A DNA stretch of 59,479 nucleotides, taken from the IMG/VR virus record IMGVR_UViG_3300036761_004206, positions 1-59,479 of that record; one strand, 5' to 3'. The stretch is from a virus. A program made the position numbers and the translations under genes. The notes under the pieces are model-generated. The model was not told the DNA's origin. It saw nothing but the letters and a program-made list of their open reading frames with translations, and did no database searches. Shown piece after piece: positions 29,818-49,366 of this stretch. Positions within the stretch are counted from its first letter, which is position 1; every line of letters begins with the position of its first letter.

Positions 29818-30815
29818 GTTTTATATTTGCTCGGCAAATACTTGTCGTACAGTGGGCCATAATCAGGGTGTGCGTAGATTTCTTTCTCTAATGCTTTGAT
29901 TTGTGGTTGGTATTTCATGATTTTTCGCTGTTTGCCAGTATCAATTTCCCAACTCATAGCCCCAAAATGGATAATATCCAATGGCATTGGAGCAAAATGA
30001 TAACCCTTCTGAACCGCATTATAATAATGCCATGCTCCCATTTCCATACTGATAAAATCGTAAGATTTTTCTAATTGGGGTACGTCATACCCTAAAGCTC
30101 CCAAGTCTTTGTAATATTGGAAGAATTTCTCTACGTCTCCTACTCGTTCGTGGAGCTTGAATGGCGGTGTATTGATGTGATATCCACACCATGAAGACCC
30201 CATTTCGCTCATATACTTTTTACGACAGCAGAGGAAAAGACAGAGCAAATGTGGGAAACGTAGTAGTGGTTTATCAATATGGGTGGTGGAGTCACACTTA
30301 GCACATAACAAAGTAATTGGGTTATTTTCAGCATAAGCTATGATTACATTTGGGTCATTGAAAAACGTCTTTTCAACCACCCGCATCCAGTCATTTTGGC
30401 AGATAATTAAATCATCATGCATGATGAGATAACTGTCCGTATGGACCCAAGGGATTGCCATTTCTACAGCTTCAGGATGGCCTATTCTACTCCAGACGCG
30501 GATAACAGTGATCGGCATGTCCCGTTTTGCTTTAGGAGAATCAACATGATACCATTTTAATTTTCGCAAATCTTCTAAGAAGGCTTGCTTTGTATCACCA
30601 ATTGTTACATCACCAGTTCTTTTATCAGGGCCATTGATACAAACTATAAAATGCTCCATATGATCTTTCACTTTTGTTCTTAATAAAAGTGAAAAGGTAG
30701 ACCATAAAAGACACTCTATAGGCCCGCTTGAAGTTGGATAAATAACTGTTAATTTTTCTGGAATGCTGGTAAGTTCTGCCGCTTCCTCTATTGAGCAAAC
30801 CATATGTGGATGCAT
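29814..30815 (-). CDS. Glycosyltransferase-like protein, paralogue family B (copy 1), 333 aa
   Basis: A GT-A-like enzyme of a second family. Features are LTVIYPTSSGPIECLLWSTF near residue 23, EHFIVCINGPDKRTGD, and SYLIMHDDLIICQNDWM with the metal-binding HDD. It is clearly paralogous to the adjacent upstream gene (shared MxHPHM N-terminus, CLLWS-FSLLLR, CINGPD-RTGD and a similar C-terminus). AGGAGA precedes the ATG. Confidence 0.8.
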   Translation of the reverse strand: MHPHMVCSIEEAAELTSIPEKLTVIYPTSSGPIECLLWSTFSLLLRTKVKDHMEHFIVCINGPDKRTGDVTIGDTKQAFLEDLRKLKWYHVDSPKAKRDMPITVIRVWSRIGHPEAVEMAIPWVHTDSYLIMHDDLIICQNDWMRVVEKTFFNDPNVIIAYAENNPITLLCAKCDSTTHIDKPLLRFPHLLCLFLCCRKKYMSEMGSSWCGYHINTPPFKLHERVGDVEKFFQYYKDLGALGYDVPQLEKSYDFISMEMGAWHYYNAVQKGYHFAPMPLDIIHFGAMSWEIDTGKQRKIMKYQPQIKALEKEIYAHPDYGPLYDKYLPSKYKT

Positions 30816-30818
30816 AAA

Positions 30819-31829
30819 TTAATTCTCCTGTAAATCTGCTGGAAGATATTTTTTATAAAGCACTGAATATTCAGGGTGGCCTAAAATTTCTTTTTCCAAT
30901 ATTTTAATTTCTTCATTATTAGCTTTTATTTTTTCCATTCGCATTTCGGGCGTAGTATCAAAGCGACTCATACCTTCTAAATGTAAAATAGTGTCTGATG
31001 GAAGTTCTGCGAACTTATATCCAGCTTGATATAACTTGTAATAAATCCATGCCCCAATCTCTTGCCTTACAAAGTTATAAAGTTCTGTTTTAATTATAGG
31101 TTTATCATAGAGTCCTTGGTCTTTCCAGAACTTCTCAAATTCCGCAATACTCCCAATCTCTTCTAGATCAAATTGGAGCATGTTTTCGTCTGAGGGAATG
31201 TGATAACCCCGCCACAATGCTCCCACTTTCATTATGTCTTTTTTCTTACATACAACGAATGTTGTCTGAAGCTGTGGCAAACGGACAAGATACATTCCAC
31301 GGTGAATAGCGTGATCGCAGATGCAACCATGTAGAGGCGGCACATAAGCCAGTGCAACCTCTTCCTTGTTGTAAAACTTATCCTTAATTTCTTTGTCCCA
31401 ATCCTTGTTTAACAATATTACATCATCGTGCATGATGCAGTAAGCATCGGTATGCACCCAATTCAAAGCCATCTCAAACACTTCTGCATAACCAACACGA
31501 CTCCAAACACGAATGACTGTAAGCGGCATTTGCTTGCGTAATGTTGGGTTGGCTGTGTGATACCATTCTAAGTCTCTCAACTCTTCTAGGAATTTTTGTT
31601 TCTGATCTTGCATTTTGGTATCACCAGTTCGTTCATCTGGACCATTGATACAAACACAAAAATGCTCCATCATACCATGAGGCTCGCTCCTTAGAAGCAG
31701 AGAGAAAACAGACCAAAGCAAGCACTCCATGCTTGAATTTCTGGTCGGAATGACCATCGTTATTTTTTCTTTTAGATGCGTTAGTTCAACACATTCCTCA
31801 ATTTTTAATGCCATATGCGGATGAGACAT
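30819..31829 (-). CDS. Glycosyltransferase-like protein, paralogue family B (copy 2), 336 aa
   Basis: Closely related to the neighbouring family B copy. It shares SHPHMALKIEECVELTHLKE, CLLWSVFSLLLRSEP, CVCINGPDERTGD, YCIMHDDVILLNKDW and the C-terminal ILGHPEYSVLYKKYLP. The pair probably arose by tandem duplication. AAAGGTG precedes the ATG. The 35-base gap upstream is the largest gap in the operon. Confidence 0.8.
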   Translation of the reverse strand: MSHPHMALKIEECVELTHLKEKITMVIPTRNSSMECLLWSVFSLLLRSEPHGMMEHFCVCINGPDERTGDTKMQDQKQKFLEELRDLEWYHTANPTLRKQMPLTVIRVWSRVGYAEVFEMALNWVHTDAYCIMHDDVILLNKDWDKEIKDKFYNKEEVALAYVPPLHGCICDHAIHRGMYLVRLPQLQTTFVVCKKKDIMKVGALWRGYHIPSDENMLQFDLEEIGSIAEFEKFWKDQGLYDKPIIKTELYNFVRQEIGAWIYYKLYQAGYKFAELPSDTILHLEGMSRFDTTPEMRMEKIKANNEEIKILEKEILGHPEYSVLYKKYLPADLQEN

Positions 31830-31864
31830 TTTAACACCTTTGCAATACAGTTATTATGATGATA

Positions 31865-32689
31865 TTAGCAGTCTTGGTCAACTGAATTTTTATAGGCTTC
31901 TGTGAAAGACAAGAAACGCTCCTCTCTCAAGGTCGCAAGCCATGTATGATAGAGTAACTTTTTGTTTGGTATGCCTTTAGGTTTAAAATTACTCTTATAG
32001 TATTTGCTGTAATATGTGTTACAATCGGGTGTCTGGAAAGACAGCCAATTATAATTCTTCTCTTTTGCCCAAACTAACAGGTTACAACCCGTTTCGTAGT
32101 GTCCAGTTGGGTTTGGGAATAATGATTTGTATTTTTCAGGGGTATCTGGATAAAAGTATCTGTCTGGTATTTTATCTTGGTAAGTGTTGTCATCGGACAA
32201 TAACCCTAGATCAAAGTCTGATAAAAACCTTCTAGTTGGCAAGTATTCTTTCTTGGTGAATAAGTTCATTATACATGGAAAATAGCCGATAGATTGTGCC
32301 AGAGCATCTGGCCTGGAAATACCAATGAAGTTAAGATCATGTTCATGTGCTAGTTTTAGATAAAACTCATCAATATTAGTGTAAAAGAAGATATCAGGGT
32401 CTGAAATCAACACATAGTCGTTCTTGGCTAACTCAACGCCTTGGTGCAGACCATGAGCATGTTGGGCGCACATAGAAGTGACACTGCATACCTTGAAAAT
32501 GTCGTGTCGCCCACCCACCATGCGAAACGTAATTTTACCTTCTCTCCAAGTAGTGTTTATGCTTTCTCCCATTTCGGCGTTGATTATTACGACTTCATTA
32601 ACCACGGTGGTAGATTCGACAATAGATTTACAGAAAATTTTGGTAAAAGGTTCTAGTTTATTTAAAGTTACTGTGCAAACACTAATCAT
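31865..32689 (-). CDS. Glycosyltransferase-like protein, paralogue family A (copy 3), 274 aa
   Basis: Family A copy with ISVCTVTLNKLEPFTKIFCK, HGLHQGVELAKNDYVLISDP followed by DIFFY, and NWLSFQTPDCNTYYSKYYKS. The conserved GLHQ helix and DPD element are intact. It overlaps the upstream copy by 8 bases. Confidence 0.8.
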   Translation of the reverse strand: MISVCTVTLNKLEPFTKIFCKSIVESTTVVNEVVIINAEMGESINTTWREGKITFRMVGGRHDIFKVCSVTSMCAQHAHGLHQGVELAKNDYVLISDPDIFFYTNIDEFYLKLAHEHDLNFIGISRPDALAQSIGYFPCIMNLFTKKEYLPTRRFLSDFDLGLLSDDNTYQDKIPDRYFYPDTPEKYKSLFPNPTGHYETGCNLLVWAKEKNYNWLSFQTPDCNTYYSKYYKSNFKPKGIPNKKLLYHTWLATLREERFLSFTEAYKNSVDQDC

Positions 32690-33509
32690 TTTCTTCTTCC
32701 TTGGATTTACTGTACATTTCTTTCATTAATGCGGGATCGCGTCTTACATCATGGTAAATTATTTTTTGGAATGGGATTCGATCTTTGATTTTAACACTTC
32801 CTCTAAAATACTTGGTAGTGTAGTCGTGGGCGTCATAAGTCTGGAACGCAACCCACCGCCAGTTTTGCTCGATGCCCCAATAACAAAGATTTATAGATGT
32901 GTCAAAAAATACGTCTGGTTTTACATTTGGGAACTTATGCCACAACCCAGGTATTGGACTTGAAACAAGATACTTTCCATCGGCTAATTCATATACTGAA
33001 TCATCTGCATTTAATTGCTCAACCATGATGCAGCCATTGCGGAACTTCAATTGTCCTTTCAGGAAGTTTTTATCTGGTAAATCCTTCTTTCGTACTAGCG
33101 AATTCATTACATATGGGAAATAAGAGTAAGCATTGGCTACTGCGGAGTGGTGGGAACACCCAACGTAGTGTAAATCGTATTTTTCCATAAGTCTCAGGTA
33201 TAGATCATCAACTGCCGCATACCAGAAAACGTCAGGATCGCAGAATAGAATATACTCTGTTTCAACTCGATCAATACAGGCATGAAGGCCAAGTGAATGT
33301 CCGTGTTCTCCAAAATTGATGGGAGCGTAGAATTTCTTGAAACGAATGCCTTTCTTTTCGTACTCTTCAATTGTGCTGGTGTCTGTAGATGCCACTGTTT
33401 GTGCAATGAGAACTTGGGTTACATGTTGACTGTGTTCCAACACAGACTCTAGAAGAGTCTCAAGCCACCCCTCATATCCTTCTGGCGCAACTGTACAAAC
33501 TGTTATCAA
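32682..33509 (-). CDS. Glycosyltransferase-like protein, paralogue family A (copy 4), 275 aa
   Basis: Family A copy: ITVCTVAPEGYEGWLETLLE, SLGLHACIDRVETEYILFCD then PDVFWY, and WRWVAFQTYDAHDYTTKYF. The start codon is TTG at 33509, preceded by a strong GGGGGGAAA. It overlaps both neighbours. Confidence 0.8.
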   Translation of the reverse strand: MITVCTVAPEGYEGWLETLLESVLEHSQHVTQVLIAQTVASTDTSTIEEYEKKGIRFKKFYAPINFGEHGHSLGLHACIDRVETEYILFCDPDVFWYAAVDDLYLRLMEKYDLHYVGCSHHSAVANAYSYFPYVMNSLVRKKDLPDKNFLKGQLKFRNGCIMVEQLNADDSVYELADGKYLVSSPIPGLWHKFPNVKPDVFFDTSINLCYWGIEQNWRWVAFQTYDAHDYTTKYFRGSVKIKDRIPFQKIIYHDVRRDPALMKEMYSKSKEEEND

Positions 33510-34435
33510 TTTCCCCCCTCATCTTGATATACTTTTTGGAATGTTTCAAAGTCACGGTATCTTCCAAACTGATGATAAATTAATTTTTGTACCTTGAATT
33601 TATCTTTAATTGAAAAATTAGACCTGTAACAAGATGTTCTATAATAGTGACAGTCTGGAGTTAAGAAAGAGAACCATCTCCACTTTTTTTCTAATGCCCA
33701 AATATACAAATTGCTGCCTGTATCAAAATCTACACCGCCGCACACAAACTTTTTATAATGATCTAGCAATATCCCCCTGATTAACCATTTCCCATGAGCA
33801 GGAACCTTGCATTCAGCAAGCGTGGTTTCTATGCCTGGAACATATCTTAATTCACCGTGATAATATAATTCTTTATTTAAGAAATCATTATCTGGCAAGT
33901 CATGCTTCTTGACCATAGAATTTGCCATGTACGGGAAATGTCCACAAGCTACGTTAGCGGATTCGTGAGCGCAGCCGATGTAATGTAAGGAATATTTTTG
34001 CATTAAGTCAAGGTAAATTTCATCAACATTGTCGAGAAAAATGATGTCAGGATCACAAAATAGAATATATTCCTGAGTAGCACATTCTATGCATTGGTGA
34101 AGTCCGAGAGCATGTCCAAAACATGTAATAATTTTATCAATAGATATATTAACTAACTTTTCCACGTCCGCAGCTTGTAAAACGTGGGGCATAGCCGCGA
34201 TTTCTCTTGATATATTGAAATTTATTAGCGGGTAATGAATCCCTAATAAATCATATCCTAATTTTATAATTTTTACACCGTCTTGTTCGTGGATTTCATA
34301 GGATTTGGGGGAGTCAATACATGTTATGATAATTTCTTTTACATATTTAAGTTTTTTGATCGCAGACTTAATCATTAAATCCATATATGGATTTAACAAT
34401 TCAGTGGAAACGGTACATAGACTTATATCATTCAT
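33506..34435 (-). CDS. Glycosyltransferase-like protein, paralogue family A (copy 5), about 309 aa
   Basis: The longest family A copy. It has ISLCTVSTELLNPYMDLMIK, ALGLHQCIECATQEYILFCD then PDIIFL, and RWFSFLTPDCHYYRTSCYRS. I take ATG 34435; an in-frame GTG three codons upstream (34444) is the alternative. It overlaps the upstream copy by 8 bases. Extra residues lie in the N-terminal third. Confidence 0.78.
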   Translation of the reverse strand: MNDISLCTVSTELLNPYMDLMIKSAIKKLKYVKEIIITCIDSPKSYEIHEQDGVKIIKLGYDLLGIHYPLINFNISREIAAMPHVLQAADVEKLVNISIDKIITCFGHALGLHQCIECATQEYILFCDPDIIFLDNVDEIYLDLMQKYSLHYIGCAHESANVACGHFPYMANSMVKKHDLPDNDFLNKELYYHGELRYVPGIETTLAECKVPAHGKWLIRGILLDHYKKFVCGGVDFDTGSNLYIWALEKKWRWFSFLTPDCHYYRTSCYRSNFSIKDKFKVQKLIYHQFGRYRDFETFQKVYQDEGGN

Positions 34436-35204
34436 CTGATTCACTAGAATATTGTTTGTATGTTTTTAAGAATGGCTCCCACGCCTCTACCTCAATTGCA
34501 CCACTGACAGCATGATGCAATAAGTTTTGTGGTTTTAATTTCTCTGTAACCTTTACATTTCCACGATAGTATTTGCTTGTGTAGAGATGGGCATTGTGTG
34601 TCTGAAATGCCAGCCAACGCCAACTTCTTTCATGCGCCCATAACCACATTCCTGAGGCAGTGTCAAAATTACCAGTAGGATTAGGAAATGAGTCCTTTGT
34701 GTGACTTCCAACCCCGCTTTCAAGCCAAGATACTCTAAGATTTCCTTGCAACCATGTCTTGTCTGGCAAATCTTTCTTTTCAAACATGATATTGCCATGC
34801 CACGGGAAAAAAGTTCCACATAGTTCTGTCGCGGAATGGTGGGAACAGCCAATTGCTTGTAAATTATACTTAGTTTTTAAATTATAAAAGAATTCATCCG
34901 TTGCTGAAATAAAGAAAATGTCAGGGTCGCAGAGATAGACAACTTGGTTACTTGCCTTTGTAATAGCAAGGTCTAACCCGATACCATGCTGATCGCCGCA
35001 CGCCATCCCCGCCACCACTTCAACGTTGCCAAATCGCTTAAACTTAATGCCTTTTTCTGTCCATTCTTCATGAGTAGCAACAGGTAAGTCACTATTAACT
35101 AAAACAACTTCGGAAATCAGCTTGGTTTTATCAAGTATGGATTTGATGAATATTTGCTCGTAATGCTTGATTTTGTCGAGGGTGACTGCACATAGACTTA
35201 TCAT
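34428..35204 (-). CDS. Glycosyltransferase-like protein, paralogue family A (copy 6), 258 aa
   Basis: The first gene of the operon. It has ISLCAVTLDKIKHYEQIFIK, GIGLDLAITKASNQVVYLCD then PDIFFI, and WRWLAFQTHNAHLYTSKYY. CAGGAAA precedes the ATG at 35204. The operon promoter must lie in 35205-35314, an A/T-rich divergent intergenic region. Confidence 0.8.
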   Translation of the reverse strand: MISLCAVTLDKIKHYEQIFIKSILDKTKLISEVVLVNSDLPVATHEEWTEKGIKFKRFGNVEVVAGMACGDQHGIGLDLAITKASNQVVYLCDPDIFFISATDEFFYNLKTKYNLQAIGCSHHSATELCGTFFPWHGNIMFEKKDLPDKTWLQGNLRVSWLESGVGSHTKDSFPNPTGNFDTASGMWLWAHERSWRWLAFQTHNAHLYTSKYYRGNVKVTEKLKPQNLLHHAVSGAIEVEAWEPFLKTYKQYSSESDE

Positions 35205-35314: not shown

Positions 35315-35644
35315 ATGAAAAGGTTTAATTATGATGACGAAGAGTTCAAGGATGAGGACTTTCCTAACATTGATGATGATGATGATGGGGAAGAATTAAA
35401 CGCTGAATACCTGTCGATTCTTGAAAAGAGAGAATTGATCGAGGCAATAAAGCTTCAACTTATGCAAAAGGAGATTAATTTTGCAATTTTGATTGAAACT
35501 ATTAAGTATTTGAAAAAAACTTGGTTTTGGAGTTTTAAATCTTTGAATAAGAAACTCAATTTAATAATAGAGACGTATCAAACCTTCAAAGCGTTGGCTG
35601 ACATTGATGCGGCTCAATACCAAGAACAAGAAGAGTCTGAATAA
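35315..35644 (+). CDS. Hypothetical acidic/helical protein, 109 aa
   Basis: The N-terminus is a strongly acidic stretch (Asp/Glu-rich, residues 6-28), followed by helices with a Trp-rich turn (KKTWFWSFKS). GGAGG precedes the ATG, with a GATAAATA element about 35 bases upstream. The stop overlaps the next start (TAATG). No family is recognised. Confidence 0.68.
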   Translation: MKRFNYDDEEFKDEDFPNIDDDDDGEELNAEYLSILEKRELIEAIKLQLMQKEINFAILIETIKYLKKTWFWSFKSLNKKLNLIIETYQTFKALADIDAAQYQEQEESE

Positions 35645-35943
35645 TGCCGATCTATAGATTTGAATGTTTGAAATGCTCCTGTGCTTATGAGGAGCTAACA
35701 GATTACGACGAGACTGGCAAATATAAAGGTATTAAATGTCCGCAATGCAAGTCTAAAAAGAAAAAGCGGACATTTGACTATGATGTTGCCTGCGCCTTTG
35801 GCAATCCTAAAGAAAGTAGCAAGTGGGATAATTTTTCTTATCGTGCTGGTCACAATATGGAAGGTGCTAAAGCGTGTCGCCGCGCCGCTGAATCTAAATC
35901 ACATATGGGGACTAATCCATATAACAGTAAAAAATTAGATTAA
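35644..35943 (+). CDS. FmdB-like zinc-ribbon protein, 99 aa
   Basis: The start MPIYRFECLKCSCAYEEL and the later CPQCKSKKKKR form the two CxxC knuckles of the FmdB-type regulatory zinc ribbon. Such small proteins occur widely in bacteria and phages; their role is uncertain (possible regulator or partner). It is translationally coupled to the preceding gene. Confidence 0.8.
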   Translation: MPIYRFECLKCSCAYEELTDYDETGKYKGIKCPQCKSKKKKRTFDYDVACAFGNPKESSKWDNFSYRAGHNMEGAKACRRAAESKSHMGTNPYNSKKLD

Positions 35944-36010: not shown

Positions 36011-38098
36011 ATGGAAAAGTGCCAGCATTTAAATCGTTTGGCTGCAAAGTTTAACAAAGATGAGTTCAAGGAATTACACGAAGAGATGTCCTTCGGAGAA
36101 TATTTAGATCGAGTTTATGAAAATCCGCTATTGATAAGAACCGCTTATCAGCGGCTGTATGACATGGTTATGGCTAAGGGATGCCATGAATTCAACCGTT
36201 ATAAGAAGAAACTAACCCATTATAACTTCTTTGACGACCCTGAAATCCCAATCTTCGGTTTGGAAGAAACACTTGATGAATTGGTTAAATTCTTCAAAGG
36301 TGCAGCAGGTGGATACGGCACCGAAAAGCGTGTTCTTTTGCTTCACGGGCCAGTCGGTTCGTCCAAATCAACCATTCTCCGTTGTATCAAGAGGGGTCTG
36401 GAGAAGTATTCCCGTCAGCCAGAAGGGGCTTGGTATTCATTCAAGTGGGTCAATTTGCCGACAGGTCCAACAGGCATTTATACTCACCATGAGAACGAAT
36501 GCCCAATGCACGAAGAACCGATCAAATTAATTCCAATAGCTTTCAGGAAGAAAGTTCTTCAGGAGTTGAATGAAGTTCTCCGTGACCAGACTGCTGATGA
36601 TAAGAAGAACATGGTTTATAGTTTGATTTGTGACGGCGAACTAGACCCACGTTGCCGTAAATTCATGGAAGAATTACTAAGGATCAATCACGGTGATTGG
36701 CAAGCCATTGTAGAAAATCACGTCAGAATAATCCGCAAAGTCTATTCAGAAGCCGACCGTTGCGGCATCGCAACCTTCCAGCCGAAAGATGAGAAGAACC
36801 AGGACGCTACAGAACTAACGGGCGATATTGCCTTCGATAAGATCGGCCACTTCGGAGCCGACTCTGATCCCCGTGCATTCAATTTCGACGGCGAATTCTG
36901 CGTTGGCAACCGTGGTGTTGTCGAATTCATTGAAATGTTGAAGCTGGCTCAAGAGTTCCTATATGACTTGCTAGGTGCAAGTCAGGAACGTCAGATTAAA
37001 CCTAAGAAGTTCCCACAGATTTCTATTGATGAAGCTATCATCGGCCATACAAACAATCCAGAATATGAGAGATTAAGAAATAACCAGTACATGGAGGCTT
37101 TGAAGGATCGTACCGTGAAGATTGACGTACCATATCTATTACGCTGGACAGATGAGATTAAGGTCTTAGAACAGGACTACGGCACTGGCAAAGTCCGTCA
37201 ACACGTTGCTCCACATACTCTTGAAATTGCTGCTCTTTGGGCGATTTTGACCCGTGTAGACGACGATAAGGACGGTAAGCTAACGCCAGTCCAGAAAGTC
37301 CGTTTGTATAACGGTGAAGCATTGCCAGGTTATACAGAAGATAGTGTTAAAGAATTAAGGGATAAACACCCGACTGAAGGCATGGCCAGTGGTGTTTCTG
37401 CTCGTTACGTTCAAGACAAGATTTCCAACTGTTTGAGCAACAATCACGACTATATAAATCCATTCATGGTTTTGCATGAAATTAAATCAGGCTTGGACAA
37501 CAATGCCTTAATTACCAAGAAGGAAGATTTAGCCAAGTACAACAGTTGTGTAGACCTGGCAGTTAAAGAATTGGACGAAATCCTTAAAGATGAGGTCCGA
37601 AAGGCGCTTGTGGGGGATGAAAAGGTAATCGAAAGACTTTGTGCGAATTATATTGAAAATATCATGTCTTATATTCGTAAGTCTAAGATTAAGAACAAGT
37701 TAACAGGCCGCGATGAACCACCAAATGAGCGTTTGATGCGTTCTATCGAAGAGAAGATCGGCATTCCAGACCAGGGAGTTGACGATTTCCGCCGCATGAT
37801 TGCTGCATTCATTGGTGATTTGGCTACGGATGGTAAGAGATTCAAGTGGGACAGTAACCCTGACTTGAAGAAGGCTTTGGAAGCCAAACTCTTTGAAGAT
37901 ACCAGGGATCATATCAAACTGTCTGCACTTAATGTCTCAGATGCTACAGTCGTTGCTCCTGATGTTCAGGACAAGATTGATGCTATTAAGAAGCGTTTGA
38001 TTGACCAGTATGGTTACAACGATAAGTCTGCTTCGGACGTGTTAGATTACGTCGGTAGCTTGTTCGCAAGAACATCTATGGAAGAAGAAGATAAGTAA
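36011..38098 (+). CDS. prkA: PrkA-like AAA+ serine protein kinase (YeaG homologue)
   Basis: In bacteria PrkA/YeaG is a Ser/Thr kinase with an AAA+ domain, linked to starvation and sporulation responses. The N-terminus (SFGEYLDRVYENPLLIRTAY, then IFGLEETLDELVKFFK) matches family openings. Walker A is GPVGSSKST at residues 113-121. Conserved IGHTNNPEYERL (from residue 344), MEALKDRTVKIDVPY and a C-terminal kinase-type helical region follow. At 695 aa it is near PrkA length (about 640-690). TAGGAGA precedes the ATG. A strong hairpin separates it from the yeaH- and spoVR-like genes. Confidence 0.9.
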   Translation: MEKCQHLNRLAAKFNKDEFKELHEEMSFGEYLDRVYENPLLIRTAYQRLYDMVMAKGCHEFNRYKKKLTHYNFFDDPEIPIFGLEETLDELVKFFKGAAGGYGTEKRVLLLHGPVGSSKSTILRCIKRGLEKYSRQPEGAWYSFKWVNLPTGPTGIYTHHENECPMHEEPIKLIPIAFRKKVLQELNEVLRDQTADDKKNMVYSLICDGELDPRCRKFMEELLRINHGDWQAIVENHVRIIRKVYSEADRCGIATFQPKDEKNQDATELTGDIAFDKIGHFGADSDPRAFNFDGEFCVGNRGVVEFIEMLKLAQEFLYDLLGASQERQIKPKKFPQISIDEAIIGHTNNPEYERLRNNQYMEALKDRTVKIDVPYLLRWTDEIKVLEQDYGTGKVRQHVAPHTLEIAALWAILTRVDDDKDGKLTPVQKVRLYNGEALPGYTEDSVKELRDKHPTEGMASGVSARYVQDKISNCLSNNHDYINPFMVLHEIKSGLDNNALITKKEDLAKYNSCVDLAVKELDEILKDEVRKALVGDEKVIERLCANYIENIMSYIRKSKIKNKLTGRDEPPNERLMRSIEEKIGIPDQGVDDFRRMIAAFIGDLATDGKRFKWDSNPDLKKALEAKLFEDTRDHIKLSALNVSDATVVAPDVQDKIDAIKKRLIDQYGYNDKSASDVLDYVGSLFARTSMEEEDK

Positions 38099-38168
38099 AA
38101 ATAAAATGGACTCACCCACGATTTATAGAAGTAATGCATAGTTATAGGTGGGTGAGTCCATTTTATTT
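38099..38168 (+). terminator. Long-stem terminator after prkA-like gene
   Basis: A perfect 21-bp stem (38099-38119 with 38148-38168) with a 28-base loop is flanked by A-rich and T-rich ends. It probably reduces transcription into the downstream genes. Confidence 0.8.
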
Positions 38169-38182
38169 ATAAGGAGATTAAG

Positions 38183-38425
38183 ATGGAACCAGAAGATATA
38201 AAAGAATATAAAGAAGGCCATAGAACTATAGTTTTCAATTTGTGTAATTTGCGGTACAAAGATCAAACCAAGTTTATTCAAATGTACCAAAATGCCATTA
38301 GAAACGGCATTGACGGGGTTAAATTCGTTAAGACTTGGAATCATTATGCCAAGGATATAAGCGAGCATGTGTTCTGGAGTATCAAGCCTGAACCCAATGC
38401 GACGTTTACTAAGCGAGGGAAATAA
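38183..38425 (+). CDS. Hypothetical protein in the prkA-yeaH interval, 80 aa
   Basis: AAGGAG precedes the ATG. A compact, soluble basic protein; KTWNHYAKDISEHVFWSIKP is its most distinctive part. Not recognised. Its position inside the PrkA/YeaH/SpoVR block may indicate a phage-specific partner. Confidence 0.65.
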   Translation: MEPEDIKEYKEGHRTIVFNLCNLRYKDQTKFIQMYQNAIRNGIDGVKFVKTWNHYAKDISEHVFWSIKPEPNATFTKRGK

Positions 38426-38436
38426 ATTATGGGAAC

Positions 38437-38604
38437 GTAATCCATTGCTTCCTGCATCGCTCACAATACCAATGTTGATGGAACTTTATTATTAAAGAGA
38501 ATTGGTGTAACGAGAATAAAATCGAGTTGATTGTAATTCCATATACCAAATTTAAAGAAATAGAAAACATAATAAAAGAGGTGATCCTTTGCCCCGTGCG
38601 ATAG
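38437..38604 (+). pseudogene. Possible remnant of a homing endonuclease C-terminus
   Basis: An open frame after an in-frame stop (TGA 38476-38478) encodes NWCNENKIELIVIPYTKFKE followed by IENIIKEVI. This looks like the C-terminal LIxIPY strand-helix of VSR/EDxHD-type phage endonucleases. Upstream of the stop the same frame has CFLHRSQYQC. There is no start or complete domain, so this would be a decayed fragment. The judgement is by eye and moderate to low. Confidence 0.35.
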
Positions 38605-39809
38605 AAGAAGATCATAAACACTTCAGAGATGTTATTGATGGGAAACTAAGAAAAGAACTCCAAAAGTATGTTAAACTGAACAAGTTTGTTCGTTTGCGTG
38701 CTAAGGGTGGTAAAGCCACAGTATCTATTCCAACCATTGATATACCGCATTTTGTTTACGGCGAAGGCGAAACAGGCATTGGTCGTGGACCTGGCAAAAA
38801 AGGCGACATTATTAAACGTGACCCGCAAAAAGGTGATGGTGATGGTCATGAAGCAGGTGAAGACGAGGGAGAGGGCATTCTTGTTAATGTTGGGCTAGAG
38901 TATTTCCTTGAAGAACTCCAAAAAGAACTCAAGCTGCCTAACCTTAAACCAAAACCTACCCAAACTTTCGAAGACATTAAGATTAAATATAACGACATCG
39001 CTTTAACAGGGCCAGAATCATTAAGGCACAATCGCCGCACCATCCTTCAAGCACTGAAGCGTCAGGCTGCTGCAAACGATTTGGACAAACTTTATTATAT
39101 TCCAGGGTCTACGGACCCAATGCGTATTATTAAGCCAATCAATTCTGACCGTCGTTATCGCCAGTATAAAGAAATTAAGATACCTAGCAGTAATGCTGTG
39201 GTTATGTTCGGACGTGATGGGTCTATTTCAATGGATGAAGAGAAATGTGATATTGTGTCCGATATGGCATACTGGATTGACGCCTGGATTAGAAGGTTTT
39301 ATGAGAAGGTTGAACGTTGCTATTTCTGGCATGACGTGGCCGCACAGGAAGTTGATGAAGAATACTTCTACAAATATCGTTATGGCGGTGGAACTCAGTG
39401 TTCTTCTTGTTTAAAACTCATGGCAAAACAGTTTGAAAATCGTTTCCCACCTGATAAATGGAATGTCTATTGCTTCTACTTTTCAGATGGCGAGAACCAG
39501 TATAATGATAATCCTGTGTTTAACGAGTCTTTAGCTAAAGATTTCCCTCCAACTGTATGTAACCTATTTGGTGTCACGCAGGTTTTATGTTATAACTATG
39601 CGAATAGTTTGAAGGAAAGTGTTGATAAGGAATCAGAAAAACTTTCTAATGTTAAGACAACTTCTATTGGCAATGAAAAGACTGTAGATTTTTCATCTGG
39701 CGATTGGAGCGCTCCTAAATTGTCCGAAGAAGAGAGAAACGAACAAATTAAGCAGGCACTCAAGACACTATTGAGTGAACTAAATGTAGAAGCGGGGGTT
39801 GGTATTTAA
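38589..39809 (+). CDS. yeaH: YeaH/DUF444-family protein
   Basis: In bacteria this VWA-like protein works with PrkA/YeaG; its exact role is not established. The start is TTG at 38589 with AGAGGTGAT upstream. The DUF444 opening (DHKHFRDVIDGKLRKELQKY), a Gly/Asp-rich loop (KKGDGDGHEAGEDEG type), and a DxSxS metal-site-like element (FGRDGSISMDE) with a later YRYGGGTQCSS segment are seen. It ends one base into the SpoVR start (TAATG). Length (406 aa) is typical. Confidence 0.88.
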   Translation: MPRAIEEDHKHFRDVIDGKLRKELQKYVKLNKFVRLRAKGGKATVSIPTIDIPHFVYGEGETGIGRGPGKKGDIIKRDPQKGDGDGHEAGEDEGEGILVNVGLEYFLEELQKELKLPNLKPKPTQTFEDIKIKYNDIALTGPESLRHNRRTILQALKRQAAANDLDKLYYIPGSTDPMRIIKPINSDRRYRQYKEIKIPSSNAVVMFGRDGSISMDEEKCDIVSDMAYWIDAWIRRFYEKVERCYFWHDVAAQEVDEEYFYKYRYGGGTQCSSCLKLMAKQFENRFPPDKWNVYCFYFSDGENQYNDNPVFNESLAKDFPPTVCNLFGVTQVLCYNYANSLKESVDKESEKLSNVKTTSIGNEKTVDFSSGDWSAPKLSEEERNEQIKQALKTLLSELNVEAGVGI

Positions 39810-42724
39810 TGTCAAAATTCATGCGTGGATCGGCATTGCTTGAAGGGAATGATACTACTCCAGGGTGCCATCTAACAGACGAAGAAAAACGAGTGTTCAG
39901 TGAAGCCCTCGTTGAATGTAAGAAATATGGTTTGGATTTCTACCCGACTATTATCCAGAAGGTGCGTTATGATGAAATGTCGGAAATCGCCGCCTATGGT
40001 GGATTCCCACATCGTTACCCGCACTGGTATTGGGGTATGCAATACGAGGAACTTCAGCGTGGTTATGAATATAACCAGCATCGTATCTATGAGCTTGTAG
40101 TTAATTGTACGATTTCTGGAACTAAATTATTAACTTCTTTGGGAACGAAATTAGTTGAAGATATACGAGTGGGGGATATTGTTCTATCCAGGGATGGCTC
40201 TCGTAAGGTGGTATTTGTAAAAAAACAGTCTAAAGCCAAGGTATTAAGAGTAACTTTACACGACCATCATGTAGGGTTTACTTGTACACCAAATCATAAA
40301 TGGTGGACATTAAGAGATAGTTATGCTGAATGGATAGAAACTAAAGATTTAAGGTGTGGTGATTACATTTTAGGTGGTGGTAAATTTGATAATTTTTTGA
40401 ATCATGCTCCACAAATTACTTGGGATGAACAAAAAGTTTTAAAAGAAACTGCTCCAAATGTTAGATGGAAACTTAAAGATATAAAGACCCCCAAACAAAT
40501 AACTGTTCAGTTGGCAGAACTTTTAGGCATATGTACTGGAGATGGGTCTTGTGGTGTTCCATGTGCTGAAAATTTAATTATAGTATCTATAGATAAAAAA
40601 CAGGTTGGATACCAACAACATGTCTCTGGACTATTTTTTAATGTATTTAATGTTGCTGCCAAAATTGATGAAAAACCAAATTGTTGCACAGTAACAATGT
40701 CGAGCAAATATGCTGTTGATTTCATGAATAGTATTGGTCTTAAAAAAGGTGTAACGTATGACAACAAGAGAATTCCTGATATAATTTGGCAGTCTTCTAA
40801 TGAGTTTAGAGCAGCATATATGCGTGGTCTTTTTGATACTGATGGCTATGCAGGCACTTATTTGAGTTTTAGTGCAAAGAATGAAAACCTTGGAAAAGAC
40901 GTTCAATTAATGTTACTTGAGATGGGAATTAGAAGCAGGTTAAGCCATGTATTAAATAAGAATAATGATATTTGGGTGCTGTCTATAAAGGGACGGCCTA
41001 ATGTTGTTGAGTTTAATAATAGAATTGGTTTTAATTTAGATTATAAAAAAATAAGATTAGAGGCTCTTGTCAATGCTGGAAATCCATCAAGGGGAGATTA
41101 TAAAATACCTGGCATTCAGAAGTTAATTTTAAAACTCGTTAATGAACTTGAAAACCCTAAAAGACTTCCAAAGTGGATTAGGTCATTTAGGCATAGACTT
41201 GCGGAAATTGAGTATAATACAAACTCATTATGGATGAGTTTGTCTAAGTTGCTAGCTTGTGGTTATGAGCAATTTAGAGAAGTTTTTGGACTTCTTTCCA
41301 CCCCAATGTATGAAGTGCAATCAGTGGAAGAAGCTGGCGAACAAGAAACTTATGATATAGCTTTAGATCATGATGCACATGACTTTCTTGCTAATGGCTT
41401 GATATCACATAACACCAACCCATGTGTAATGTATATTATGGCATCCAACACCATGTTGGATAACGTGACAGTTGTGTTTCATGCTACTGGACATAATGAC
41501 TTCTTTAAAAACAATATTTTCTTCACACCAACTGACGAAAATATGATGAATAAGCTGTCCAGCAATGCCGCTCGTATCCGCAAGTATATTACCCGCTGGG
41601 GCAGAGAAAGAGTTACCGAGTTCATTGACCATATTCTAAGAATTCAAACCTTGATTGATCCAGCAAAAGCTTGGACAGAAAGAGTAATTCGGGAACCAGT
41701 CATTAAGGATAAACGAGAATATGAATACCCAAGAAGGCTAAGAATAGCCCCTGATCGCCTTCATATGGACTCTTGGATTAATCCCAAGAGCTTTATTGAC
41801 AAAGAATATAAAAAGATCGAAGAAAATGAACTGGCTAAAGAACTAGAACTTTTCCAGATATCAGATAAGGATATCTTTGGGTTCTTGAAGGACTACGCCC
41901 ACTTAAAGCCTTGGCAGCAGGACATTATTAGTATGCTTTATGAGGAGTCAATGTATTTCTCCCCACAAAGAGCTACTAAGACCCTTAATGAAGGTTGGGC
42001 GTCGATGATGGACTATGAGTTCATGACCCGCCAAGGTTTTTGTGCATTGGGCCAGAAAAATCATGATATGGGCATTGTGGAATATGCAGTCCATAAGATG
42101 GGAGTTCTTGGCGGCAAATATAGCGTCAACCCATATAAAACTGGCTTCTATTTGCTCCTTGATATCGAGGAACGATGGAATAAAGGTCAATTTGGTACTG
42201 AATACGAAGAATGCAAGTATATGAAGCAGAAGGAAGATTGGGATACAAAAGCTGGTCTTGGTAAGCAGAAGATTTTTGAAGTAAGAAAGTATTACAATGA
42301 TGTAACTTTCATCAATGAGTTCTTCACTCAAGAGTTTTGTAACAAGTTTGAATATTTCGAATATAAGCATTATCCGAACGGTGAGTGGAAAATTGAAGGT
42401 CGAGACGCCAAAATTATTAAGAGAAAACTTTTACAGAAGCACGTTAACGGCGGTTTGCCAGATATCCGCATTGTTGATCCTAACCATAGAAATAAGAATT
42501 ACTTCCTACTACAACACTACAGAAATGAACTTGATGATCGCGTTTTATATGATCCGTATGCCAGGTCGGTCATGACTTCGATATATTATCTTTGGGGCAA
42601 AGATGTTATGTTAGCGACCACAGATAGAAATAACGATGAATTTGTCTATGTTTGTGTAGGTACAAATCCAGAAAAAGATGTTGTTTTATTAAGCAGAGAA
42701 GACTATGAAAAGACATGGACGTAA
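39809..42724 (+). CDS. spoVR: SpoVR-like protein interrupted by an intein
   Basis: SpoVR/YcgB proteins accompany PrkA and YeaH in many bacteria and affect spore cortex or stress phenotypes by unknown chemistry. The extein has YGLDFYPTIIQKVRYDEMSE, GGFPHRYPHWYWGMQYEE, then after the intein TNPCVMYIMASNTMLDNVTV and HATGHNDFFKNN, all hallmark segments. The mature length is 535 aa, near the normal 470-510. The intein (residues 100-535) sits between VVN and TNPC. It is coupled to the yeaH-like gene. Confidence 0.9.
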   Translation: MSKFMRGSALLEGNDTTPGCHLTDEEKRVFSEALVECKKYGLDFYPTIIQKVRYDEMSEIAAYGGFPHRYPHWYWGMQYEELQRGYEYNQHRIYELVVNCTISGTKLLTSLGTKLVEDIRVGDIVLSRDGSRKVVFVKKQSKAKVLRVTLHDHHVGFTCTPNHKWWTLRDSYAEWIETKDLRCGDYILGGGKFDNFLNHAPQITWDEQKVLKETAPNVRWKLKDIKTPKQITVQLAELLGICTGDGSCGVPCAENLIIVSIDKKQVGYQQHVSGLFFNVFNVAAKIDEKPNCCTVTMSSKYAVDFMNSIGLKKGVTYDNKRIPDIIWQSSNEFRAAYMRGLFDTDGYAGTYLSFSAKNENLGKDVQLMLLEMGIRSRLSHVLNKNNDIWVLSIKGRPNVVEFNNRIGFNLDYKKIRLEALVNAGNPSRGDYKIPGIQKLILKLVNELENPKRLPKWIRSFRHRLAEIEYNTNSLWMSLSKLLACGYEQFREVFGLLSTPMYEVQSVEEAGEQETYDIALDHDAHDFLANGLISHNTNPCVMYIMASNTMLDNVTVVFHATGHNDFFKNNIFFTPTDENMMNKLSSNAARIRKYITRWGRERVTEFIDHILRIQTLIDPAKAWTERVIREPVIKDKREYEYPRRLRIAPDRLHMDSWINPKSFIDKEYKKIEENELAKELELFQISDKDIFGFLKDYAHLKPWQQDIISMLYEESMYFSPQRATKTLNEGWASMMDYEFMTRQGFCALGQKNHDMGIVEYAVHKMGVLGGKYSVNPYKTGFYLLLDIEERWNKGQFGTEYEECKYMKQKEDWDTKAGLGKQKIFEVRKYYNDVTFINEFFTQEFCNKFEYFEYKHYPNGEWKIEGRDAKIIKRKLLQKHVNGGLPDIRIVDPNHRNKNYFLLQHYRNELDDRVLYDPYARSVMTSIYYLWGKDVMLATTDRNNDEFVYVCVGTNPEKDVVLLSREDYEKTWT
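40106..41413 (+). mobile_element. Intein with LAGLIDADG endonuclease in SpoVR
   Basis: 436 aa from Cys100 to Asn535. It begins CTISGTKLLTSLGTKLVEDI, has block B TCTPNHKWW, and ends GLISHN before Thr. Endonuclease motifs are LLGICTGDGS (238-247) and RGLFDTDGYAG (from 339). All splice residues (Cys1, block-B His, His-Asn, +1 Thr) look intact, so it should splice. Confidence 0.9.
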
Positions 42725-42987
42725 CGTTGATTTTTGGCTCGTTGGGGATAGTTTTTTATCTATTTTTAATGCCTTTTGTGGGTGGTTGGTCATTCTTCCT
42801 GGGTGGTATAAATGCTTTAGCTGATTACAACCCCGAATTCGATGAACTAAAGAAAAAGCACACTGCTATTTTGGATATAATCCTTGGCAGTGTGCTTTTA
42901 TTATTTTTTAATGGTTTATTTTGGTTTGTGGTGTGGCCTCTAGTTGTATCCTTTTATAATCTTAATTTACCAATATTTTCATGGTAG
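42715..42987 (+). CDS. Small membrane protein, 90 aa
   Basis: Starts inside the end of the SpoVR gene (10-base overlap). Two hydrophobic parts, residues about 5-30 and 55-80 (LGSVLLLFFNGLFWFVVWPL), are consistent with two or three membrane helices around a polar loop. A terminator-like hairpin lies within the gene. It could be a membrane partner of the PrkA/YeaH/SpoVR set or an unrelated membrane protein. Confidence 0.62.
   Translation: MDVTLIFGSLGIVFYLFLMPFVGGWSFFLGGINALADYNPEFDELKKKHTAILDIILGSVLLLFFNGLFWFVVWPLVVSFYNLNLPIFSW
42854..42899 (+). terminator. Terminator-like hairpin inside a coding region
   Basis: A perfect 13-bp stem (42854-42866 with 42887-42899) with a 20-base loop is followed by a T-rich run. 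It lies within the small membrane protein gene. Confidence 0.5.
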
Positions 42988-43014: not shown

Positions 43015-43455
43015 ATGGCCGCAATGAGCAATTATTTGGAAGGGGAACTTATAAACCTTATTTTCCGTACAGCAACTTACTCAAAGCCAGCAACCATAGC
43101 TATTGCTCTTTGTACCGCCGCTCCTACAGATGCCAGTACAGGCGCAACGATACCAGAAGTAGCTAGCGCATTTGGTTATGCAAGAGTAGCATTCGGCCCC
43201 GCAAATGCCAATTGGTCTGCCCCTATAGCTGGTGATGGCACAACTAAAAACGTTACGGCTATAACATTCCCCCAAGCCAGCGGTGGTAGTTGGGGTACAA
43301 TTACCTATGTTGCAATAGTAGATAGTACCACTTATGGTGCTGGTAATATGTTATTCTATGGAGTTTTAACCACGCCTAAAATCATAGATGACATGGATAT
43401 ATTTGCCTTCGCAATTAGTCAGCTAGATATACAAATTGACGGTGTATGTCCTTAA
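43015..43455 (+). CDS. Phage tail-fibre/appendage-type virion protein, 146 aa
   Basis: The layout NYLEGELINLIFRTATYSKP, then IAIALCTAAPTDASTG, FGYARVAF, SWGTITYVAIVD and LFYGVLTTPK matches a common small phage structural family. In that family a start helix is followed by a beta sandwich. AAAGGGG precedes the ATG. It is under a TATAAATA element and convergent with the repeat-protein gene. Confidence 0.75.
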   Translation: MAAMSNYLEGELINLIFRTATYSKPATIAIALCTAAPTDASTGATIPEVASAFGYARVAFGPANANWSAPIAGDGTTKNVTAITFPQASGGSWGTITYVAIVDSTTYGAGNMLFYGVLTTPKIIDDMDIFAFAISQLDIQIDGVCP

Positions 43456-44120
43456 CATCTACGACCTTTATTAATCCTTAAATTTATTGTTTTGGATGAA
43501 TTTATCTTCGGTACATTAATAGTACCGCCAGTCTTCGGTACATTAACAGTGCCGCCAGTCTTCGGTACATTAATAGTGCCGCCAGTCTTCGGTACATTAA
43601 TAGTGCCGCCAGTCTTCGGTACATTGAGGCCAGATTTGACACAGGCATTAGCAGGTTTACTACTCCCCCCACGAATGATCCTAGTGATTGTAGTTTTCCC
43701 AATAAGAATTTTTGCAATAGTTCTAAGTCTTGCAGAAGCACCAGCAAGTTTACCAGGATTGGCTGTAAAAGTAGTAATGCAATGCAGCCTAGCTGTACCA
43801 CCAGAGGTTTTTATTGCATTAGCATCAACATTAGCAACACATAGAAGGTCAGCGTTAGCATTAGCAAACTTCATAGCATTAGCATCAACATTAGCAACAC
43901 ATAGAAGGTCAGCATTCGCATTAGCAAATTTCATAGCATTAGCATCAACATCAGCAACGCAAAGAAGGTCAGCATTCGCATTAGCAAATTTCATAGCATT
44001 AGCTGTAGTGGTGGACACACATAGTAGGTCTGCACTTGAACAATCTTGAACATTTGGAGCGTGGGTGCGCAATGTGCCAGTCCCACAGGTTGTTGGATCA
44101 TGAGTAAGTAAATGTGCCAT
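43452..44120 (-). CDS. Tandem-repeat, probably virion-associated protein, 222 aa
   Basis: The N-terminal half has about 3.6 copies of a 20-residue repeat (DLLCVANVDANAMKFANANA). The C-terminal part has five NVPKTGGT-type 9-residue repeats, then a basic tail. The start overlaps the preceding stop (TAATG), placing it last in a four-gene structural operon. The repeats look like a beta-strand or fibre-like scaffold. The opposite strand is also open here but is explained by the repeats. Confidence 0.68.
   Translation of the reverse strand: MAHLLTHDPTTCGTGTLRTHAPNVQDCSSADLLCVSTTTANAMKFANANADLLCVADVDANAMKFANANADLLCVANVDANAMKFANANADLLCVANVDANAIKTSGGTARLHCITTFTANPGKLAGASARLRTIAKILIGKTTITRIIRGGSSKPANACVKSGLNVPKTGGTINVPKTGGTINVPKTGGTVNVPKTGGTINVPKINSSKTINLRINKGRRC
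43506..43625. repeat. 27-base tandem repeats, about 4.4 copies
   Basis: Units of 27 bases starting at 43506, 43533, 43560 and 43587, nearly identical at DNA level, encode the NVPKTGGT repeats. Confidence 0.9.
43815..44030. repeat. 60-base tandem repeats, about 3.6 copies
   Basis: Units of 60 bases with a few differences each encode the 20-residue LLCVANVDANA repeats. Confidence 0.88.
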
Positions 44121-46840: not shown

Positions 46841-47195
46841 GGGGGTGACACTGGTTTCGACTCCGTAGCAAGTGGATTGATGTGCAGGCAGTAGTTGGTC
46901 AGCAGGCTACTTAAAAAGCCGACCAAGTTCTACACGCAACTCATAATGAGTATGCTCTAGCGGCCTAATAACCGCTGGTGGACGACAGAAGCGAATGCCG
47001 ATAGCGTCTGGAAGTCCAACGTAAAATTTGGCTGCTCTTTAGAACGGCAACTGTTCTAGAGCTAAGATTAGTTGCAACGGTTAGTATGAGATTTGTTTGC
47101 TGTTCTTATATTAACTTAGATTAAACAACAAACTAAGCCTGTAGAGAGTCAGTTTACTCTACGCGAGGACGCGGGTTCGACTCCCGCCACCTCCA
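46841..47195 (+). ncRNA. ssrA: Transfer-messenger RNA (tmRNA)
   Basis: It rescues stalled ribosomes and tags incomplete proteins. The 5' end GGGGGTGACACTGGTTTCGA and the 3' part (T-arm GCGGGTTCGACTCCCGC, then CACCTCC) pair as a 7-bp acceptor stem with one G-U pair. The tag frame is at 46936-46965 and encodes ATHNEYALAA, followed by two TAA stops (46966-46971); the YALAA end is the standard protease-recognition tail. CCA is not encoded after discriminator A47195. Length is 355 bases. It has its own promoter and terminator. Phage tmRNAs are known but uncommon. Confidence 0.95.
46936..46968 (+). other. tmRNA tag-peptide reading frame
   Basis: The GCA resume codon begins ten codons encoding ATHNEYALAA, followed by TAA TAA. 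The C-terminal LAA matches ClpXP-type degradation signals. Confidence 0.88.
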
Positions 47196-47199
47196 ATTT

Positions 47200-47536: not shown

Positions 47537-49366
47537 ATGGTAGTAAAAACAGAAAATCAAGAATTGAATGAAAAGATGGCGATGTCTGGCCAGCGGCCAT
47601 TACGCCATCGTTATAAAGAAAGTAATTGTGAACCGCACACGCGCGTCGATGATGCTGGCGATGCTGAAAGAACCGATTATGGTAAATTAAGTCAATGGAC
47701 CACAGGTGACGGAAAGCGATTTCTCCCCGCAGGCATTACTAAAGAGCAACTCCCGCCTGCCGTCTATGAAATTCACCATTCTGCTCAATTAGGCTTATAT
47801 TTTCAGAAAATTCCTGTCCGCACCGAAGGTTTATTAAGATTCCCACAAACCAATTCTGAGCGAGTCCTGAAAGAAATTGAAACTTTTTGGGACCGTGAGA
47901 ACCTGTTTACTGAATTTTCAATTACTTACAAGCGCGGCATTATTCTATGGGGACCGCCAGGATGTTTGGCTGCGGATACACATATTGCATATGCTTCCTA
48001 CGGGCCTGATGGCAAGAGACGATCTCATAAAGGCGGGACAATAGAAAGGTTGTATCAGGTTTTCAATAGATTGATTGGCAGTGGAAAAGGAAGATATCAA
48101 ATTGCACCAAAAGATTCTGTTTATATGGTTTCTTCTGTGGATGATGAAGGCAGAATATTTAAAAATAAAATAGTTAATGTTGTTTATAGTGGAATTAAAA
48201 AATGTTTCAAACTACGAACTGTTAGCGGATTTGAGATAGAGACAACAAACGATCACAAGTTTTGGAATGGAGATAAATATATTGCCTTAAAGGATTTAAA
48301 AGTAGGGGACATGCTACATGTTCATAAAAATACTATAAAAAACATTTCAGAGCATAATGAAAAAAAACAAAGAAAATATTGGTATGTTAAAAATCACCCA
48401 TGCGCTAGAACCAAAATAATAGATAAATATGCATATAAGGTTTTATCTTTGGCAAGAGCGGTCGTTGAAGCCAAAATGAATAATTTAAAGTTAGATGAAT
48501 ACAAAAATTTATTAAATAGTAATGAATCTATAGAGTTACAATTTCTACCACAAGACGTAGATGTTCACCATAAAGATGAGAATTGTGCCAATGATAGTTT
48601 AGATAATTTAGAAATTTTTAATCACGCAGAACACGCTAAGCATCATGGTATGAATCAGGATTTATATTATATTACCACACCAGATACAATAGAATCTATA
48701 GTAGAAGTGGGAGAAAAAGAAACATATGATATTCAGATGGAGATGCCATATAATAATTTTGTGGCCGCTAATTTTGTAGTTCATAATAGTGGCAAGACCT
48801 GCACTGTCAACCTAATTATGAAGGATGTGGTTGATCGTAACGGTGTTGTAATTAAGTTCACCAATCCTGGTCTTTTTATCGAAGGCATGAGAGTTTTAAG
48901 AGAGATTCAGGCTACAACACCGATTGTTGTTTTGATGGAAGACATTGATTCAATTATCGAGCATTATGAAGAGTCTCCAGTTTTGAACATCCTTGATGGT
49001 GTGGAGAATATTAGCAAGGTGATTTTCTTGGCGACTACGAATTACCCTGAAATGCTTGGACCGCGTATTGTTAATAGGCCATCTAGATTTGACAAGAGAT
49101 TTAAAATTCCATATCCTAATGTCGAATCAAGAACCATGTATTTCAAGCATCTTTGTGGCACTAAGAAGCCAGAAGAATTAAAGATCGACATTAAGAAATG
49201 GGTCAAAGACACTGAAGATTTCAGTATTGCTCACTTGAAAGAATTGTTCGTTGCTGTTATTATTCTTGGCGATGAGTACGCGGAAGCATTAGAAAACCTG
49301 AGCAAGATGAAAGAAAAAATATCTTCCAGTGAAGATATAGACAAGTTGATGGGCTTCAAGAGATGA
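47537..49366 (+). CDS. AAA+ ATPase interrupted by an intein
   Basis: A chaperone-like AAA+ enzyme. The mature extein is 334 aa: an N-terminal unknown domain (residues 1-130), then IILWGPPG joined to SGKT after splicing (Walker A), VVLMEDID (Walker B), VIFLATTNYPE (sensor 1) and NRPSRFDKRFKIPYP with the arginine-finger-like RPSRFD. This resembles FtsH/Cdc48-type AAA modules found in T4-like phages. The start is uncertain because no Shine-Dalgarno sequence precedes 47537; Met14 (47576) is an alternative. Confidence 0.85.
   Translation: MVVKTENQELNEKMAMSGQRPLRHRYKESNCEPHTRVDDAGDAERTDYGKLSQWTTGDGKRFLPAGITKEQLPPAVYEIHHSAQLGLYFQKIPVRTEGLLRFPQTNSERVLKEIETFWDRENLFTEFSITYKRGIILWGPPGCLAADTHIAYASYGPDGKRRSHKGGTIERLYQVFNRLIGSGKGRYQIAPKDSVYMVSSVDDEGRIFKNKIVNVVYSGIKKCFKLRTVSGFEIETTNDHKFWNGDKYIALKDLKVGDMLHVHKNTIKNISEHNEKKQRKYWYVKNHPCARTKIIDKYAYKVLSLARAVVEAKMNNLKLDEYKNLLNSNESIELQFLPQDVDVHHKDENCANDSLDNLEIFNHAEHAKHHGMNQDLYYITTPDTIESIVEVGEKETYDIQMEMPYNNFVAANFVVHNSGKTCTVNLIMKDVVDRNGVVIKFTNPGLFIEGMRVLREIQATTPIVVLMEDIDSIIEHYEESPVLNILDGVENISKVIFLATTNYPEMLGPRIVNRPSRFDKRFKIPYPNVESRTMYFKHLCGTKKPEELKIDIKKWVKDTEDFSIAHLKELFVAVIILGDEYAEALENLSKMKEKISSSEDIDKLMGFKR
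47963..48787 (+). mobile_element. Intein with HNH endonuclease in AAA+ P-loop
   Basis: 275 aa from Cys143 to Asn417, inserted between GPPG and SGKT of Walker A. Splice motifs include a Cys1 start, block-B TTNDHKFW and a VVHN end before Ser. The endonuclease is of the HNH type: VDVHHKDENCANDSLDNLEI followed by NHAEHAKHH. It is unrelated to the LAGLIDADG inteins in the window. Confidence 0.9.

Follow-up and report, generated by a model that had tools for sequence, protein, structure and literature searches.

The Locus

The window, which is the whole 59,479-nucleotide stretch of IMG/VR viral record IMGVR_UViG_3300036761_004206 analysed here, encodes a PrkA-family AAA+ protein, a DUF444/YeaH protein, and a SpoVR protein. 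The three genes are intact and collinear on the plus strand, and each product matches its Pfam family at 1e-59 or better. The features of the locus are as follows.

35315-35644, plus strand: orf109, a small acidic protein, first gene of a conserved five-gene block
35644-35943, plus strand: zinc-ribbon protein (CxxC...CxxC), second gene of the block
36011-38098, plus strand: PrkA-family AAA+ protein, 695 amino acids
38099-38167, plus strand: intergenic hairpin with 21-bp perfect arms, a 28-nt loop, and a T-rich 3' side
38183-38425, plus strand: orf80, an accessory small gene
38589-39809, plus strand: DUF444/YeaH family VWA protein with an intact MIDAS, 406 amino acids, TTG start
39809-42724, plus strand: SpoVR precursor, 971 amino acids (N-extein 39809-40105, intein, C-extein 41414-42721, stop 42722-42724)
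40106-41413, plus strand: intein of 436 amino acids (residues 100-535) at SpoVR site a, between N99 and T100, with Hint and LAGLIDADG endonuclease domains
42715-42987, plus strand: orf90, an accessory predicted membrane protein

A complete set of these three genes on a phage is what the original prediction had described, and the motifs that it named (the PrkA Walker A, the DUF444 DxSxS, and the SpoVR HW...EE) are all present. It made no mention of the two genes upstream of prkA; among 53 representative loci from phages, each is present in 50, orf109 lying just upstream of prkA. The orf109 protein has no family match in Pfam and its dN/dS is 0.08-0.09. The product of the 35644 gene features a weak match to Zn_ribbon_8, under the Pfam cut-off, and its four cysteines are invariant in 20 phage homologues. 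The small genes at 38183 and 42715 had been put forward as phage-specific partners, and as conserved partners they were rejected, since L004 and L005 alone have homologues of orf80 (dN/dS 0.15) and L005 alone has one of orf90, which confines the two genes to one or two of the closest relatives.

The hairpin downstream of prkA has a folding energy of -33 kcal/mol (z -7.8). It recurs in L003, L004, and L005, where a change from A-T to T-A affects both arms, and is a probable terminator or processing element. In many relatives the gap between prkA and the DUF444 gene is merely 15-50 nt. The neighbours of the trio in the window clade are ThyX, HldE-like, and Pol III alpha genes. In the window, a minus-strand stretch (26913-35204) of about nine glycosyltransferase-like or related genes separates the HldE-like gene from the trio, and in many relatives the HldE-like gene is only ~3.5 kb upstream of prkA. 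Downstream of the trio, positions 43452-44120 consist of short repeated blocks in which long ORFs can be read on both strands (e.g., NVPKTGGT repeats).

PrkA

The PrkA protein (36011-38095) matches both the AAA_PrkA domain (PF08298, 9.5e-77, 258.9 bits) and the PrkA C-terminal domain (PF06798, 2.5e-68, 231 bits) of Pfam, versus cut-offs of 25 bits, and belongs to the family. The structure of a PrkA relative has been solved (PDB 9xip, 687 bits). The Walker A motif reads GPVGSSKST and includes K119, the equivalent of YeaG K116. All 82 phage and all 80 bacterial PrkA proteins compared have this lysine, and PrkA retains 193 positions that bacteria conserve. YeaG R232 is needed for function in E. 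coli; its equivalent in the window is Asp276. This position, which is not a published membership criterion, varies across the phage clade, with Arg in 21 of 82 phages versus 80 of 80 members of the bacterial sister group. YeaG K426, located in the kinase-like domain, aligns with D469, and a shift of one residue would bring it to K470, a lysine that phages and bacteria both conserve.

The AAA+ protein PrkA of B. anthracis forms oligomers with ATP, and PrkA was assigned to AAA+ clade III, not to the MoxR clade (PMC13001217). The same study, published in 2026, detected no kinase or protease activity, the protease activity being gone after a contaminant was removed. Kinase activity is disputed even for bacterial PrkA and must be considered doubtful. 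The proposal that the phage protein phosphorylates host proteins is accordingly left unsupported, since its premise is a kinase activity that was undetected in B. anthracis PrkA (PMC13001217).

DUF444

The DUF444 protein (38589-39806) matches PF04285 at 1.8e-59, with 202 bits versus a cut-off of 27. Its TTG start codon is preceded by a good ribosome-binding site, AGAGGTGAT, and its stop codon shares one base with the SpoVR start codon (TAATG). The MIDAS residues are the DxSxS motif (D210, S212, and S214) followed by T269 and D300, and all are invariant. The predicted model of the L005 homologue (pLDDT 82) finds its best PDB match, at 4.7e-07, in a VWA domain, and it also matches Rea1-MIDAS and NorD of the NorQD complex. 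As judged from this model, the protein has a predicted VWA fold.

SpoVR

The SpoVR reading frame (39809-42721) matches PF04293 at 6.8e-90 in two blocks, with 302 bits versus a cut-off of 27, and SpoVR_C at 1.2e-06. Removal of the intein that separates the two blocks leaves a 535-residue SpoVR whose alignment with intein-free relatives covers its full length. The original prediction overlooked the 436-residue intein in the 971-residue ORF; its family assignment and its HWxxGxxxEE motif, which reads HWYWGMQYEE from H72, stand. All 74 phage and all 47 bacterial proteins share H72, W73, H122, H126, and E292, and W294, located in the NEGWA motif, is variable among phages. Seven residues past the NEG glutamate, position 299 is Asp in all 74 phage proteins, that of the window included, versus His in 47 of 47 bacterial proteins; phiYS40 also has Asp. 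The bacterial His is an observation of the present analysis based on these 47 bacterial sequences and not a published criterion. A uniform replacement of His by Asp under such strong constraint looks like a changed function rather than decay.

The predicted SpoVR model, made from L005, has a pLDDT of 86.5. Neither a sequence search nor a fold search with this model gave a significant match in the PDB; the sub-threshold matches include several zinc-protease folds. The HxxxH motif does not contain the catalytic Glu of HExxH, which is replaced by Ala in phages and Val in bacteria. The arrangement of HxxxH on one helix and NEG on another recalls the gluzincins, minus the catalytic Glu. The motif spacing and the sub-threshold fold matches suggest a zincin-like SpoVR, in which the H122xxxH126 motif and E292 would form a putative metal site.

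Inteins

The SpoVR intein matches Intein_splicing at 5.7e-09 and LAGLIDADG_3 at 1.8e-11 (44.6 bits versus a cut-off of 22.5). The splicing residues C1, TPNH (the block B TxxH), the terminal HN, and the +1 Thr are present, as in other LAGLIDADG inteins. It differs from these in having SpoVR as its host protein and in that the inteins of a single phage clade use two or more sites of the same gene. A literature search that covered few subscription papers and no bioRxiv preprints found no paper pairing SpoVR with an intein. A search of IMG/VR with peptide patterns confirmed no intein homologues, and those described here were found instead through the SpoVR loci.

Intein occupancy is polymorphic. 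Of the 77 phage SpoVR loci, 6 have an intein at site a only, 8 at site b (between NEGWA and S) only, 8 at both sites, and 55 at neither. Site a is empty in L003, L004, and L005. Near-identical phages differ in this respect: L043 has no intein, L038 has one at site b, and L040 has both, and their exteins are 98.5-99.7% identical. Similarly, L044 has no intein and L046 has the site-a intein, with exteins 97.1% identical. The SpoVR of LR756504 (L170) features an intein at a third position, between NEG and C. Site b is also occupied in bacterial SpoVR proteins from Oscillochloris (L110), Chloroflexus islandicus (L087), and a member of the Planctomycetota (L125), and the intein of Oscillochloris shares 43% identity with phage inteins across its length. 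Among 158 genomes from the class of Oscillochloris, 91 contain SpoVR; the gene is split at site b in one frame in about 28-29 of these and at site a in none. These results suggest an exchange of the site-b intein between phages and Chloroflexia or Planctomycetota. Inteins located in or next to the best-conserved SpoVR motifs, together with sister alleles that lack them, provide a natural way to ask which residues are important.

Other mobile elements were found in the window. An AAA ATPase gene (47537-49366, plus strand) features a second intein, with Hint and HNH_3 domains, at its Walker A motif, and the C-terminal part of its product weakly matches IetA. The gene of a Hel308-like helicase (7096-10176, plus strand) contains a probable third intein, with a LAGLIDADG match in the N-terminal ~400 residues, which resemble phage terminase inteins. 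A free-standing LAGLIDADG homing endonuclease is encoded at 16403-17251 on the minus strand.

Phage Identity, Conservation, and Phylogeny

The window is a 59-kb fragment of a viral record, and its gene content includes SSB, UvsX/RecA, Pol III alpha, ThyX, a Hel308-like helicase, and a tmRNA. The tmRNA (46841-47198, plus strand) encodes the tag ATHNEYALAA and is followed by a terminator-like hairpin. A megablast of the window DNA against the phage collection gave no matches, and relatives were reached by protein searches only. The metagenomic phage LR756511.1 (595,163 bp) contains the trio in matching order, with PrkA, DUF444, and SpoVR 84, 76, and 81% identical in amino acid sequence to those of the window. 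Genes for a gp23-type capsid protein and a terminase are present on LR756511.1 and on the 341-kb record of L005, and in both records they lie ~180-190 kb from the trio. The contig is phage DNA, and the proposal that it comes from a jumbo phage is borne out by these two relatives.

One scan of IMG/VR with PrkA gave 132 viral relatives, of which 80 were fetched. The order prkA-DUF444-spoVR is complete in 77 loci of the window clade, most of the remaining few being cut by a contig end, and the trio is collinear in 47 bacterial loci as well. Two other markers were tried. Pol III alpha gave only 4 relatives, and among 15 contigs bearing the major capsid protein (MCP) gene only 2 also carried PrkA. 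The latter result says nothing for or against a universal trio because the contigs are fragments and the trio is ~180-190 kb from the capsid gene. In PHROGs each of the three proteins corresponds to one phage family without a function. The dN/dS values of the trio between the window and L004 and L005 are 0.03-0.05 (0.03 for PrkA), which are rough values at a dS of ~1.5-1.8.

In the PrkA tree the window clade forms a single branch (SH-aLRT 100) next to a bacterial set of many phyla (99), and the DUF444 and SpoVR trees repeat this split. The nearest bacterial PrkA proteins of the genome scan are 51-54% identical to the query and the fetched phage proteins 59-92%. PrkA of the Thermus phages forms a separate group, and LR745206, LR756502, and LR756504 together with the Enterobacter record LAU1 form a third, YeaG-like group. 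As to the profile search, the co-occurrence scan, and the phylogeny that had been suggested as checks, the scores are far above the curated cut-offs, the order is fixed wherever the contig reaches, and the phage proteins form a clade apart from their nearest bacterial homologues for all three genes.

That the trio might be host DNA fused to phage sequence by contamination or misassembly, as the identical gene order in bacteria could suggest, is so improbable that it can be set aside. The trio is found on 80 fetched viral contigs and in a 595-kb phage record, it shares one record with the gp23 capsid gene, the phage sequences stand apart from bacteria in three gene trees, and the nearest bacterial PrkA of the scan is 54% identical to the query versus 92% for phages. 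A bacterial chromosome or a misassembly, on which the original prediction would have foundered, is ruled out on these grounds. By these comparisons, the module is a long-standing core trait of a huge-phage lineage that is maintained by strong purifying selection, and not a stray acquisition. The simplest reading of the trees is at least three phage captures of the module, a count drawn from a bacterial sample of the 80 nearest relatives only, with the root not fixed and long Thermus branches.

Relation to Known Systems

The bacterial PrkA-DUF444-SpoVR set (E. coli yeaG-yeaH and ycgB) shares the three families, the gene order, and the core residues with the phage version; however, the latter forms a separate clade and features the SpoVR His to Asp change, a relaxed PrkA Arg position, extra conserved upstream genes, and an intein. 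In haloarchaea the set was noted in 2011 as co-located and functionally linked (PMC3102087). All three families are adjacent or nearly so in the Thermus phages phiYS40, TMA, MN1, Lalka, and phiLo, but there the order is DUF444-spoVR-prkA, PrkA is about 28-33% identical to that of the window and falls in a separate clade, and the trio is near the terminase in some. The huge phages LR745206, LR756502, and LR756504 (634-642 kb) have PrkA and DUF444 close together and SpoVR in the genome; their PrkA, however, is E. coli-like (YeaG-type) and 25-27% identical to that of the window, and in LR756502 SpoVR is located elsewhere in the genome. NorQ-NorD, RavA-ViaA, and other AAA+/VWA pairs also combine an AAA+ gene with an adjacent MIDAS/VWA gene and a client, and the DUF444 model matches NorD. 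PrkA differs from their ATPases in having its own C-terminal domain and belonging to another AAA+ clade, and its physical coupling to DUF444 is putative. A known anti-phage defence system was considered and rejected: PADLOC gave none for PrkA or DUF444 and matched SpoVR through its intein only.

The system had been called undescribed. This holds insofar as no paper treating the trio as a phage system was found in the same literature search; on the other hand, the genes are already annotated side by side in the cultured Thermus phages phiYS40, MN1, and phiLo, and SpoVR and PrkA are listed separately in the Ralstonia jumbo phage RsoM2USA (PMC8504454). Additionally, for viromes from a marine oxygen-minimum zone, spoVR was named as the 'sporulation' gene of highest abundance (PMC8940887).

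Proposed Role and Alternatives

The reading that we lean towards, at slightly less than even confidence, is that the trio is the phage lineage's own long-inherited and selected module, in which PrkA and DUF444 act on SpoVR and host metabolism is restrained. An AAA+/VWA machine working on SpoVR is favoured because the locus combines the genes of an AAA+ ATPase, of a MIDAS protein, and of a protein with a conserved His/Glu site. PrkA would be a ring ATPase and DUF444 its von Willebrand/MIDAS adaptor. We infer that the two would couple in a complex that remodels SpoVR and its targets or loads them with metal, much as NorQ/NorD does for nitric oxide reductase; this analogy is loose because PrkA belongs to AAA+ clade III and not to the MoxR clade. 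SpoVR of the window would first have to splice out its mobile intein. The active module may then restrain host metabolism through a long intracellular phage cycle. E. coli YeaG and YeaH jointly act as a 'metabolic brake' under nitrogen starvation (PMC10954441, PMC4664914). The dormancy-like role of the original prediction is possible. Counting against this reading are the loss of the YeaG R232 equivalent (Asp276), the change of the SpoVR His to Asp299, and a SpoVR fold that is unmatched in the PDB.

The changes at Asp276 of the window PrkA and at the SpoVR His (Asp in 74 of 74 phages) are clade-specific and fall at functional positions, and the module is widespread in bacteria. Both observations would suit phage proteins that act as decoys or dominant negatives, mixing with host PrkA, YeaH, and SpoVR to disable the stress response and keep the host active for replication. 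However, the Walker A motif, the MIDAS, and the SpoVR HxxxH/E residues are all retained, dN/dS is ~0.03 over the full length, and a poison would not require three intact proteins, so this explanation is unlikely. A similarly low probability is given to general protein quality control, with PrkA as a phage ATP-dependent protease or unfoldase and SpoVR as its protease partner. ATP-dependent protease activity has been reported for B. subtilis PrkA (cited in PMC13001217), and the SpoVR model gives weak zincin-like fold matches, but B. anthracis PrkA has no protease activity once the contaminant is removed (PMC13001217) and the HxxxH motif has no catalytic Glu. A chaperone machine for particle assembly or packaging is quite improbable. 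It is suggested by Thermus phage Lalka8, where the trio is between the minor head and terminase genes, and by phiYS40, where it is near the terminase, and it is opposed by the ~180-190 kb that separate the trio from the capsid and terminase genes in the LR756511 and L005 records, by the ThyX, HldE-like, and Pol III alpha neighbours in the window clade, and by a bacterial function that is not structural.

Returning to a module that acts on SpoVR and the host, a wider interpretation is put forward more tentatively. Phages may have captured the module repeatedly, and one huge-phage lineage may have kept it in its core as a diverged machine for quiescence whose SpoVR metal site is altered. The module would then be a general phage strategy for control of the metabolic state of the host, and spoVR would be a gene important enough to act as a shared homing target for inteins passing between phages and bacteria. 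PrkA, YeaH, and SpoVR form a widespread bacterial trio, and its repeated presence in phages, including cultured Thermus phages, makes its function tractable. If the module brakes host metabolism during infection, it would represent an unrecognised route of host control.
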